This document shows positions 3,513 through 6,902 of a stretch of 6,902 nt of DNA, piece by piece. Numbering within the stretch: the stretch's first letter is position 1; each line of letters starts with the position of its first letter. Under the pieces are notes generated by a model, which saw only the letters and a list, made by a program, of their open reading frames with translations, did no database searches and was not told the origin of the DNA. The DNA is from Anaerolineaceae bacterium (GTDB taxonomy: Bacteria > Chloroflexota > Anaerolineae > Anaerolineales > Anaerolineaceae): positions 1 through 6,902 of the forward strand of contig JAQTMA010000219.1 in assembly GCA_028714615.1 (NCBI GenBank), written 5' to 3'. The translations under genes were made by a program, and so were the position numbers.

Positions 3513-4787
3513 GTGCTGTTCAGGAGAAGCCGCCTCATGCAAGCCTTGATCGGTCAGCGTTTGTCCAGCGATTTCAACCTTGCCGCGCAAATATTAATCC
3601 TGATCGGGTTATGGATTGGGTTTCTTTTTGCCCGCCGCAAGCAATTTAAGCACCACCAGGCCATTCAAACCACGATGGTGGTGGTGAACTCATTCTTGAT
3701 CCTATTTGTGATGGTCACCAGCCTGTACAACTACGTGATCGCCGGGGGAACCACGACGGGAGTGGTGGCCACCCTGATGATGGCGCATGGCGTGGTAGGG
3801 CTGGTGGCTGAACTGACCGGCATCTACCTGATTCTGCGTATGAGCACCCATCTGCTTCCCGAACGCCTGCGGGTGCGCAACTTCAAGATGGTGATGCGGG
3901 TGCTGCTGGGGCTCTGGACGCTAATCGTGGTGGGTGGTGTAGGGATTTACTATTACCGCTACCTGGCGCCAAAACCGACAACGACGAACCCAATGGCGCC
4001 GCTAGCCCGGGCGGTAGACGACATCCAGATTCACTCGGACGAAATGGCCTCGGCCCTGCAGCGCGGTAACTTGACGACCGCGAAACGCCATGCCGAGCAC
4101 CTGGTGAACCTGATCGTGGGGAAGGGCAGCGCCGATTATGGAGATGTGGATGGAAATGGCACCGTCGAAGATCCCGGGGATGGCACCGGCGCGGTGGTCT
4201 ACCTGGAGAGCGAGCGGAAATCCGTCTCCCAGGGTGGCAGCGACCCGGTCAAAGCAAACACCCTGCTGAACCAGATGGACGCCGCCATGATCCGGGTCGC
4301 CGCCGACGCCAAACAGGTGCTCCTGGCGCAAAACGCCTCCGGGCTGACCCAACCGGCCGAGGACGCTTCTGCGCTGGCCAGCGAGCTGCGGGATGCGTCG
4401 AACGGGTTGATCGGGCAGTTAGCCGCAGTCACCGGCGCGCAAGTTCCCCCGGCAGCTTCGGCGATGAACGCGCCCGGAACGGGAACTGCCGCGGCGGCTC
4501 CGCCAGGAAATGCGAACGCCTCCAGCGTGACCGTTGTGATGCAGAACATCAGCTTCAACCCCAAGACGATCCAGGTGAAAGCCGGCGCCGCCATCGTATT
4601 TGTCAACCGCGACGCCGCCAAGCATACGGTCACCTCCGATACGGGGAAGTTCAATTCAGGCGACATCGCTTCTGGACAGAGTTTTTCGTTGAAGTTGGAT
4701 GAACCTGGGACTTATCCCTACTATTGCGAATTCCACGGCGACAAAGGGGGCGTGGATATGGCGGGGACCATCGTGGTGACGCCTTAG
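3513..4787 (+). CDS. Membrane-anchored cupredoxin with DUF420-like four-helix N-terminus
   Basis: 424 residues from GTG 3513, or 416 from the better-supported ATG 3537. Numbering is from 3513. Four membrane helices at about 22-40, 54-74, 84-108 and 127-147 resemble DUF420 proteins: a basic KHHQ loop after helix 1, a conserved-type His92 in helix 3 (MMAHGVVG), and a final aromatic YYYRYL. Residues 160-310 form a mostly helical extracytoplasmic domain with His174 and a HAEH motif (193-196), plus an acidic DVDGNGTVED loop at 211-220 resembling a calcium site. An Ala/Pro/Gly linker leads to a plastocyanin-like domain (338-424). Its type 1 copper ligands are all visible: His371 (KHTVTSD), Cys405 and His408 (YYCEFHGD), and Met416 (GGVDMAG). 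It probably carries electrons or copper at the outer face. The redox partner is not in the window. The gene ends 2 nt from the convergent anti-sigma-like gene. Confidence 0.88.
   Translation: MLFRRSRLMQALIGQRLSSDFNLAAQILILIGLWIGFLFARRKQFKHHQAIQTTMVVVNSFLILFVMVTSLYNYVIAGGTTTGVVATLMMAHGVVGLVAELTGIYLILRMSTHLLPERLRVRNFKMVMRVLLGLWTLIVVGGVGIYYYRYLAPKPTTTNPMAPLARAVDDIQIHSDEMASALQRGNLTTAKRHAEHLVNLIVGKGSADYGDVDGNGTVEDPGDGTGAVVYLESERKSVSQGGSDPVKANTLLNQMDAAMIRVAADAKQVLLAQNASGLTQPAEDASALASELRDASNGLIGQLAAVTGAQVPPAASAMNAPGTGTAAAAPPGNANASSVTVVMQNISFNPKTIQVKAGAAIVFVNRDAAKHTVTSDTGKFNSGDIASGQSFSLKLDEPGTYPYYCEFHGDKGGVDMAGTIVVTP
3522..3527 (+). promoter_or_regulatory. Shine-Dalgarno that favours the ATG at 3537
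   Basis: AGGAGA lies 9 nt before ATG 3537. The upstream GTG at 3513 has no purine-rich site at a suitable distance, so initiation at 3537 (protein MQALIGQRL) is preferred. Confidence 0.55.
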
Positions 4788-4789
4788 AT

Positions 4790-5854
4790 TCAATTCTTGA
4801 CCAAGGGGACCGAAAACACCCACGGGCCCCGAATTGTTTGCATTGTCGATCCATCCGGGAGGCTTGCAAGGCTATTAATCGTAAGTACCATGTTTACCGG
4901 GGTCGGATCTCCAGGAACCTCAAATCCAAAATCATAACATGCCTGACCCGGGACCTCCGGGTCGACGGCGTCTGAAAACCTCGCATTCTGAACGGACATG
5001 CCCTGCCCGCCCTGGAGATAAGCTTCAGAAACCACCCATTCCTGGGACTCGCCAGTGGCGCGTGGAAGGCAAACCCTTGCCTCAATATACGATGGGGTTA
5101 AAGTCACCGATTCCAGGCGCAGCGTGTACCCACTTACCCGGGTTTCCTGCCCAACCCGAATCGTCTTCCCCTCAGACACCGGTACCTGGAAGGCCAAGTG
5201 GTAATTCCCAATCAAGGGAAAGGGAGGTGGAGGCGTTCGGTTGGTTTCCAAGAAGTTCATCCCAGGCGCACAAGGACCAATGATAAGGTCCAAATTCAGG
5301 TCCAGTAATTTCAATATCTCTGCATTAATATTCTGATGATAAACATATGTCAGTTCGATAGGTTTTCCCGGTTGGTCATCCAAGATTTGGAATGTGCTCT
5401 TCCCGCCTGCCTGCCCCACCGTGACGACTCCGCCGGTGGTGATGCGTGGCCGGCAGATTACGTCTTCTACCGAACTACCAGGTGGGACGACTAGCCCAAA
5501 AACCGTAAGCTGGAAAGCAAGCCGCCGTTCATCCGCATATGCCCAGTCGAGCTGAACCTGCACCGGGATGGAGGATGTTGGATTAGTTCCACCCATTGAT
5601 TTCTGGGGGAACACAGTGGGTTCTGCGGTTTGCTCCTGGTGGATCACCAACCCAGAATCCTCTGCCCCTTGCAGCCCAGGATCCAGCATAATCCGGTAAT
5701 ACGCGTAAGCCGCTGAGCTGATGACCAGAAGTAGCAGGAAAACCAGGGCAACACCACCCGCTTTGTGAAGATGAAACCGCCTTAGGCTCCATCGGGTAGG
5801 CTGCCCGACAATTTGGAGCGAGATAGCTGGCCAGAGATTAGTTCGCTTCGGCAC
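4790..5854 (-). CDS. Single-pass anti-sigma-like protein (DUF4179-type ectodomain), N-terminus cut off by an in-frame TAG
   Basis: 354 residues from GTG 5854 to the TGA at 4790-4792. A short cytoplasmic part holds the TNLWPAI motif (5-11), seen in membrane proteins encoded next to ECF sigma factors. One transmembrane helix follows at about 32-53, then DPGLQ and a beta-rich extracytoplasmic domain (QLDWAYADERRLAFQ at 101-115; GPWVFSVPL near the end). This fits DUF4179/DUF5643-like anti-sigma partners from my memory of the families. The natural start is probably not GTG 5854, which has a weak site only 2 nt away. An ATG at 5908 lies in the same frame, overlaps the sigma stop as ATGA, and has AAAGGA 7 nt upstream. 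It encodes MNQDRRISDA, then TAG at 5876-5878, then TAIADEAV before the GTG. So the gene is either a nonsense mutant or is rescued by re-initiation. Confidence 0.8.
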   Translation of the reverse strand: MPKRTNLWPAISLQIVGQPTRWSLRRFHLHKAGGVALVFLLLLVISSAAYAYYRIMLDPGLQGAEDSGLVIHQEQTAEPTVFPQKSMGGTNPTSSIPVQVQLDWAYADERRLAFQLTVFGLVVPPGSSVEDVICRPRITTGGVVTVGQAGGKSTFQILDDQPGKPIELTYVYHQNINAEILKLLDLNLDLIIGPCAPGMNFLETNRTPPPPFPLIGNYHLAFQVPVSEGKTIRVGQETRVSGYTLRLESVTLTPSYIEARVCLPRATGESQEWVVSEAYLQGGQGMSVQNARFSDAVDPEVPGQACYDFGFEVPGDPTPVNMVLTINSLASLPDGSTMQTIRGPWVFSVPLVKN

Positions 5855-5904
5855 CGCCTCGTCGGCAATCGCGGTCTATGCATCGCTAATACGCCTATCC
5901 TGGT

Positions 5905-6156
5905 TCATAGGATCTTCCTTTCGCTTTTTAGCAGGGAGCGGAGAGCTTGGCGGGCTTTGCTCAATAGCCACTTCACCGTGCCAAGTGGGGCATCTATCCA
6001 CCGGGCGATCTCGGTTTCGCTGCAATTCAGAAAATAGCGCTGCACAACCGCCGCCTGTTGACGGGGTGGCAGTTTACCCAGCGCCTTCCACACTCGATCT
6101 TGAAACTTGGATTGTTCGGTTTGTTGTTCGGGAAGCAATTCATCGATGATTAACAC
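5905..6156 (-). CDS. ECF sigma factor, region 4 part
   Basis: 83 residues if started at GTG 6156; the open frame continues upstream to the TAA at 6199-6201. It contains a complete sigma region 4: KALGKLPPRQQAAVVQRYFL at 24-43, ETEIARWIDAPLGTVKWLLS at 47-66 as the helix-turn-helix that reads -35 elements, then KARQALRSLL. GGAAG lies only 2 nt before the GTG, a weak start site. If translated it depends on re-initiation 42 nt after the TAA, or on readthrough. Its own stop TGA overlaps ATG 5908 of the anti-sigma gene. Split sigma factors with regions 2 and 4 on separate chains are known (SigO-RsoA of Bacillus subtilis), but here both halves stay in one frame. Confidence 0.82.
   Translation of the reverse strand: MLIIDELLPEQQTEQSKFQDRVWKALGKLPPRQQAAVVQRYFLNCSETEIARWIDAPLGTVKWLLSKARQALRSLLKSERKIL
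5916..5921 (-). promoter_or_regulatory. Shine-Dalgarno for the original anti-sigma start at ATG 5908
   Basis: On the minus strand AAAGGA lies 7 nt before the ATG at 5908-5906, which shares ATGA with the sigma stop codon. This placement identifies 5908 as the ancestral start and makes the TAG ten codons later a true interruption. Confidence 0.6.
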
Positions 6157-6198
6157 ATCTTCCAGACCCGGTTTTCCTTGAACAGGCTCAAGACTAAT

Positions 6199-6465
6199 TT
6201 ATCGCTCCTGCTCGTGAGCAGTCGTGATCGCCAAGTTGATAACCGAACGGAAAAACCAGGGCGCGAAGGGACGGCCCGGGTCTAGATGATCGATTCGCTG
6301 GTAGGCATTGAGGGAGGCTTGCTGAACAACTTCCTGGGCGCTTTGCAGGTCGCGGGTGATGAGGTATGCCACCCGGAGTGCTTTGATCTGGTGTTTTTCT
6401 ACTAACCACTCCAGCCCACCAATGTCACCGCATTTCAAGCGGCTCACTGCGCTGTCATCGTCCAT
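6199..6465 (-). CDS. ECF sigma factor, region 2 part
   Basis: 88 residues from ATG 6465, preceded on the minus strand by AAGGAG with a 4-nt spacer. The sequence is a complete sigma-70 region 2: GLEWLVEKHQIKALRVAYLI at about 17-36, DLQSAQEVVQQASLNAYQRI at 39-58, and the typical RPFAPWFFRSVINLAI at 65-80. Region 2 binds the core polymerase clamp and melts the -10 element. The chain stops at TAA 6201-6199, just where the linker to region 4 should begin. Alone it lacks -35 recognition. Recognition of the family is firm; whether the fragment is functional is open. Confidence 0.85.
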   Translation of the reverse strand: MDDDSAVSRLKCGDIGGLEWLVEKHQIKALRVAYLITRDLQSAQEVVQQASLNAYQRIDHLDPGRPFAPWFFRSVINLAITTAHEQER

Positions 6466-6469
6466 TCAA

Positions 6470-6475
6470 CTCCTT
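6470..6475 (-). promoter_or_regulatory. Shine-Dalgarno of the sigma gene
   Basis: AAGGAG on the minus strand, 4 nt before ATG 6465. It fixes the start of the sigma reading frame. Confidence 0.6.
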
Positions 6476-6498
6476 ATGATCTCAAGTTGTATACTGCT

Positions 6499-6504
6499 AT
6501 TATA
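6499..6504 (-). promoter_or_regulatory. Candidate -10 box of the sigma/anti-sigma operon
   Basis: The minus strand reads TATAAT here, 34 nt before the sigma start, within an alternating A/T stretch. No good -35 box is visible at 16-18 bp, so the promoter may rely on an activator or another sigma factor. Confidence 0.35.
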
Positions 6505-6564
6505 TATACTGGTAAGTGGGCTAAATGGTTGGGATTTCTTTCGCCTCTTTCCAAGGATGAATAC

Positions 6565-6596
6565 GAATGAGGGCAGTCCAAGGGCTGCCCTCATTC
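6565..6596. terminator. 12-bp perfect hairpin in the sigma/ABC-F gap
   Basis: GAATGAGGGCAG at 6565-6576 pairs with CTGCCCTCATTC at 6585-6596 around TCCAAGGG. Like the hairpin at 3448-3482 it has no U-tract. On the minus strand it lies 57 nt past the stop of the possible gene remnant at 6654-6791, so it may be that gene's old terminator and would insulate the sigma operon. Confidence 0.5.
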
Positions 6597-6653
6597 ACAC
6601 CTTCTTGTCTACGTTATCCTTATTCCAAAGTTGGTCTTTCGGATAAGATATTC

Positions 6654-6791
6654 CTAAAGAGTGCCTGATGGATCTGATTCAATATAAGCATTCCACGAAC
6701 CCCAATACCCAGACGTTCGCGATACCCAATTGTATCCCACCTGATACGGAATGCCGTAATAGACGATGAGCGCGTTTGGTATAATCCTTCT
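6654..6791 (-). pseudogene. Possible 3' remnant of a minus-strand gene
   Basis: An open minus-strand frame of 45 codons without an ATG, bounded by TGA (6794-6792) and TAG (6656-6654). Its peptide is unusually protein-like for intergenic DNA: PNALIVYYGIPYQVGYNWV, then SGYWGSWNAYIESDPSGTL, rich in Tyr, Trp and Gly. A hairpin follows at terminator distance. I do not recognise the family. Chance is a real alternative for a frame this short. Confidence 0.22.
6777..6785 (+). promoter_or_regulatory. Extended -10 promoter of the ABC-F gene
   Basis: TGGTATAAT is a perfect extended -10 element (TGnTATAAT). There is no good -35 box, which extended -10 promoters often lack. Transcription would start near 6792, giving a leader of about 18 nt before ATG 6810. 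Confidence 0.5.
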
Positions 6792-6800
6792 TCAAGGATT
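6783..6800 (+). promoter_or_regulatory. Palindrome overlapping the -10 box and the ribosome binding site
   Basis: AATCCTT (6783-6789) and AAGGATT (6794-6800) form a perfect 7-bp inverted repeat around CTTC. It covers the last three bases of the -10 box, the likely start site and the AAGGA at 6794-6798. It could be an operator, or a hairpin hiding the Shine-Dalgarno in longer transcripts. Confidence 0.35.
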
Positions 6801-6809
6801 TAACCACTT

Positions 6810-6902
6810 ATGGCCCTGATCAGTCTACAGGAGGTCAGCCTGGGCTTTGGCGGCCCGCTGCTTCTGGAAGAAGTCAATCTGCAAATCGAACGAGGGGAAT
6901 GG
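6810..6902 (+). CDS. ABC-F family ATPase (Uup-like), N-terminal 31 codons only
   Basis: The gene starts at ATG 6810 and runs off the right edge in frame. The peptide MALISLQEVSLGFGG followed by PLLLEEVNLQIERGEW is the first beta-strand region of an ABC nucleotide-binding domain, just before where the Walker A loop is expected. The opening MALISL..VSL.FGG closely matches my memory of Uup-type ABC-F proteins, which have two fused ATPase domains, no membrane part, and act on ribosomes or branched DNA. An ordinary ABC transporter ATPase cannot be excluded from 31 residues. AAGGA lies 11 nt before the ATG, slightly far. Confidence 0.75.
   Translation, partial: MALISLQEVSLGFGGPLLLEEVNLQIERGEW

Follow-up and report, generated by a model that had tools for sequence, protein, structure and literature searches.

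The 6,902-nucleotide contig analyzed here (hereafter the window) carries on its minus strand an ECF sigma factor gene and an overlapping gene for a probable anti-sigma factor, each interrupted by one in-frame stop codon, and we consider it most probable (a probability of about 0.8) that the two represent a recently inactivated sigma/anti-sigma operon of an Anaerolineae-like member of Chloroflexota. We infer the loss of function of both genes and the youth of the decay; because each of the two overlapping genes contains a nonsense codon, that of the second at a near-invariant residue, the recent loss of the pair is the best explanation. Since the gene for the membrane protein that follows the sigma gene is also cut by a stop, a recently dead regulatory module is a simpler reading than a two-piece sigma factor. 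The TAA in the first gene would end the sigma protein after region 2, and the truncated sigma would thus lack the region-4 domain, which reads the -35 element, while the TAG in the second gene would leave only ten residues of the membrane partner. Loss of either member would have made the other purposeless, and both would then have decayed.

Layout and domains of the sigma factor gene

The sigma gene (5905..6465, read from 6465 down to 5905 on the minus strand; the plus-strand frame is unrelated) consists of 186 codons and a TGA with a single interruption, and its ATG is preceded by AAGGAG (6470..6475), a putative ribosome-binding site (-6.9 kcal/mol). The initial annotation had given these coordinates, the 186-codon length and the TAA (6199..6201) correctly, the frame being read on the minus strand, and its statement that the total length is normal agrees with the 174-215 aa of the unbroken relatives described below. 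When the parts before and after the stop were scanned separately with Pfam, Sigma70_r2 matched only the former, at residues 21-82 (6220..6405, E = 5.3e-11), and Sigma70_r4_2 only the latter, at residues 123-175 (5941..6099, E = 1.5e-11); both matches exceeded their cut-offs, and the gene thus has regions 2 and 4 without region 3. In a structure model predicted from alignment A1 (27 rows; mean pLDDT 80.8), the last helix of region 2 ends at residue 88 and the next helix begins at residue 112, with low confidence between them. The TAA, which is codon 89, therefore stands at the predicted start of the linker and leaves both halves open in one frame, as had been claimed earlier, and no frameshift was found in either the sigma or the partner gene. 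The best PDB matches, both by sequence and by fold, were SigW, the nearest solved relative being of the Bacillus subtilis type (5wuq). As judged from its sequence, the gene is an ECF sigma factor by descent.

The initial annotation had also stressed that the break falls in the one place where it costs no domain. That position is confirmed, but the weight laid on it was too great; the linker (residues 89-111) makes up 23 of the 186 codons (0.12), and a random nonsense codon would fall there about once in eight times, so the position of the stop is weaker evidence for a two-chain design. The alignment column of the stop is itself variable, its commonest residue occurring in 42 of 105 unbroken relatives.

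Apart from the sigma and partner genes, the window has four complete or open ORFs, all on the plus strand and free of internal stops over a total of 1488 codons. Their products are a cyclase that contains HAMP and sensor domains, a proline-rich protein for which Pfam gave no match, a lipoprotein bearing secreted repeats and DUF7282, and a protein with a cupredoxin domain. Note that an inverted repeat (6565-6596; arms of 15 nt, loop of 2 nt) is located upstream of the sigma gene; it is possibly a bidirectional terminator between the sigma gene and the plus-strand gene that starts near 6810. No Rfam family matched the window at gathering scores, and a promoter scan of the minus strand (4780-6902) revealed no sigma-70-like site, the numbers being no higher than in shuffled sequences.

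The overlapping partner gene and its stop codon

The partner gene (4790..5908, minus strand) begins at an ATG (5908) that overlaps the sigma stop as ATGA. Its frame reads MNQDRRISDA, TAG (5876..5878), TAIADEAVPKRTNLWPAIS and a hydrophobic stretch, and then remains open until the stop at 4790; the predicted product has a leader with an NLWP motif, one transmembrane stretch and an extracytoplasmic part. The TAG, codon 11 of the partner, had been missed in the initial annotation. An ORF of >120 aa with a loosely similar leader starts between -30 and +100 relative to the sigma stop in 95 of the 105 unbroken relatives, and in 51 of the 105 the partner starts at -1, that is, with a one-base overlap of the ATGA type. 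Among the 57 of these 95 relatives that have starts at -1, +6 or -5 and were aligned, the column of the TAG is nearly invariant (Leu in 55, Phe in one and Arg in one). The ORF list starts the partner at GTG 5854, just before the NLWP motif; in 48 of the 57 relatives the column of this GTG holds Val or Ile.

The partner protein of the window contains no Pfam anti-sigma domain and did not match PF13786, which we take to be DUF4179, and this domain was present in two (P0046 and P0047) of the seven other proteins found in the search with the partner. DUF4179 has been described in RsiV and recorded from a few Chloroflexi (PMC6066255). The RsiV-type anti-sigma factors with DUF4179 thus share the domain with P0046 and P0047 and differ from the window's own protein, in which it was not matched. 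The position of the gene next to the sigma, its leader shared with the relatives, its membrane stretch and the occurrence of PF13786 in two related proteins together suggest that the partner is probably an anti-sigma factor.

Broken and unbroken pairs among the relatives

A scan of genome contigs using alignment A1 gave 304 relatives, of which the best 80 were kept; their titles name Chloroflexota or groups within it. These 80 (L001-L080) are single-chain ECF sigma factors with an overlapping membrane partner, and they agree with the window in having regions 2 and 4, the same total length and the same gene order; their genes are unbroken, whereas the sigma and the partner of the window each contain a nonsense codon. 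In total, 127 of 131 loci gave a sigma sequence, and among the 106 distinct sequences 105 had an open frame of 174-215 aa (that of L070 reaches the end of its contig) and one, L115, was broken. A single chain with both regions was therefore found in 105 of the 106 distinct relatives and not in the window, where codon 89 is TAA. A scan of genome contigs with the single sequence found no relatives, and none was recognized among the 14 stretches that matched in viral contigs.

The searches of the class and the family gave a similar picture. In the class search (102 matches in 396 genomes, with at most eight candidates scored per genome), internal stops were flagged in three matches; two of them were natural C-terminal ends of sigma factors of 174 and 185 aa, and the remaining one was real and was again L115, from genome G200. 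None of the 64 matches of the family search (152 genomes, partly the same as in the class search) had an internal stop. A split in the linker was absent from the 106 distinct relatives, the 102 class matches and the 64 family matches, and neither stop of the window was shared by any relative examined. Breaks of the sigma gene are thus rare in the material seen, and the sole other broken sigma also has a broken partner.

In this second broken pair (L115:4242-5955), the sigma frame is interrupted at codon 5 (TAG) and codon 64 (TAA), counted from a GTG, and the partner frame, which comprises a leader and a match to the partner of the window, has one TAG between those two stretches. No frameshift was seen, and the ORFs of 250-380 aa neighbouring the pair on the same stretch were open. 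The two cases are alike in that the sigma gene is interrupted in frame and the partner frame downstream of it contains an in-frame TAG as well, but the sites of the stops differ, and the proteins are only about 40% identical. As a separate observation, the closest genomic relative of the partner (42%) was found in the last 740 bases of another locus (L132; G073:C50:25522-26103), without the NLWP leader and with an early TAG end; any sigma gene of this locus would not be visible, since the contig ends about 160 bases upstream.

A recent nonsense mutation, one of three possibilities raised in the initial annotation, is favored by the partner's own stop, by the 105 unbroken relatives out of 106 and by the broken partner of the only broken one. 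Another of the three was readthrough, which would set a low level of the full-length sigma and, by extension, of the partner, either by leakage at the stops or by a change in their meaning. The frames on either side of both stops are open and related to those of intact relatives, as such a reading would require; the two stops differ (TAA and TAG), however, and are located at columns with different residues in the relatives, none of which shares either stop. The other genes of the window terminate at TAA or TAG, and TAA is the least leaky stop codon. A changed genetic code was rejected because of the different stops, the differing residues at their columns and the TAA or TAG ends of the other genes, and readthrough as a whole, for which no positive evidence was obtained and which leaves the TAG of the next gene unaccounted for, seems extremely unlikely.

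Since the window is a metagenome contig, one or both stops might also be wrong bases due to sequencing or assembly error, in which case the operon would be intact; the retention of conserved residues (see below) and the intact ribosome site of the sigma gene are in accord with this. Against it, the 558 codons of the operon contain two nonsense codons and no frameshift, compared with no nonsense codon in the 1488 codons of the other ORFs, and simple arithmetic indicates that two random errors over these ORFs would both fall in the operon about 7% of the time. A protein search with the read-through sigma found 42 proteins among 192 candidates, with a best identity of 51%, and a near-identical intact sigma was thus absent within the collection searched. 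The 88-residue sigma fragment (P0044) was recorded once, from a 6902-base contig, and P0045, an exact match to the C-terminal 299 residues of the partner (4790-5689), has two member sequences with a longest contig of 2070 bases, which suggests that a second contig with the same partner fragment probably exists; this separate 2070-base contig says nothing yet about either stop. Taken together, we regard error as unlikely.

Restart signals, sequence constraint and base composition

The remaining possibility is a sigma of two polypeptides, with a region-2 chain ending at the linker stop and a region-4 chain made by re-initiation, either at the GTG proposed in the initial annotation (6154..6156, sigma codon 104) or at the ATT adjacent to the stop. 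Both domains are whole and in one frame, and the conserved residues of both halves are largely kept. We scored every in-frame ATG, GTG, TTG and CTG of the C-terminal half for pairing with the ribosomal tail. The half contains no ATG, and the best duplex of GTG 6156 was -3.7 kcal/mol, similar to the value for the start codon of the partner, ATG 5908 (-4.0 kcal/mol), and weak compared with that of the sigma ATG (-6.9 kcal/mol). Three other codons, CTG 129 (-6.3), GTG 141 (-6.2, without spacing) and TTG 168 (-6.0), scored above GTG 104; they were rejected as restarts because they lie inside region 4 (codons 123-175), which would then be incomplete. The codon that follows the stop does have an AGGAG (-6.3 kcal/mol) six nucleotides ahead of it, which overlaps the last codons of the first chain. 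This codon is ATT, however, which very rarely serves as a start, and the AGGAG is also simply part of codons for ordinary residues.

In a two-subunit sigma, separate starts and a split conserved among relatives would be expected; the window offers the weak GTG 6156 and an ATT that has a good site but is not a normal start, and the split was seen in none of the 106 distinct relatives. Re-initiation at this GTG, as proposed earlier, is therefore poorly supported, and the TAG of the partner is left without explanation by the two-polypeptide reading, which we consider very unlikely. Slightly less likely still is its specific form, a young two-polypeptide ECF sigma in which ribosomes held by the AGGAG would restart at the AUU or at GTG 6156 and a shortened partner would be made from GTG 5854. 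SigO-RsoA of B. subtilis is described as a sigma whose region 4 and region 2 reside on different proteins (PMC8103513); that system has two genes with tested joint activity, whereas in the window a single gene is interrupted by a stop, lacks a good second start and is followed by a broken partner, and the likeness would appear to be one of idea only. No report of an ECF sigma split in the linker was recognized in the literature searched, which is no proof of its absence from print.

For a recent loss of the pair, disabling lesions are present where the relatives are intact (TAA in the sigma and TAG in the partner), while the lack of a frameshift, the intact ribosome site of the sigma gene and the largely retained conserved columns count against decay. 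Of 39 columns with a conservation of at least 90%, the window sigma deviates at four (D45E, F51S, F61L and R137Q); in a leave-one-out comparison, the relatives (n = 105) had a mean of 1.73 deviations (sd 1.63), and 12% of them reached four, as did six of the 15 most isolated ones (no neighbour at 60% identity). Three of the deviations fall among the 22 columns of the N-terminal half (8% of the relatives are as bad) and one among the 17 of the C-terminal half (37%). The low power of this comparison against recent decay should be noted: nonsense codons make up about 4.5% (sigma) and 3.4% (partner) of random substitutions, so that a second stop would be expected after about 25-30 substitutions in the pair, of which, by arithmetic, about one would fall in the 39 conserved columns. 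The result at the conserved columns hence fits a recent death and is compatible with function, with no clear mark of relaxed selection. Any decay would be young, because frameshifts are absent and the sigma retains its conserved residues to about the same extent as divergent unbroken relatives do.

The GC content at third positions was 0.20 (sigma) and 0.22 (partner) below that of the four plus-strand genes of the window, and a deficit as large relative to their own neighbours was found in only two of 69 relatives for the sigma and in none of 36 for the partner. AT drift in dead genes might be its cause, but so large a shift does not fit neutral decay when conserved residues show no corresponding damage; acquisition from elsewhere is as likely an explanation.

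By itself the finding is of little significance: a sigma gene and its partner gene are both interrupted in the window, and G200 provides a second, independent case. It cautions that, where the adjacent gene is interrupted as well, a stop in a domain linker says little in favor of two chains; should the two-chain reading nevertheless be true, an ECF sigma would have become a two-subunit protein through one nonsense codon.
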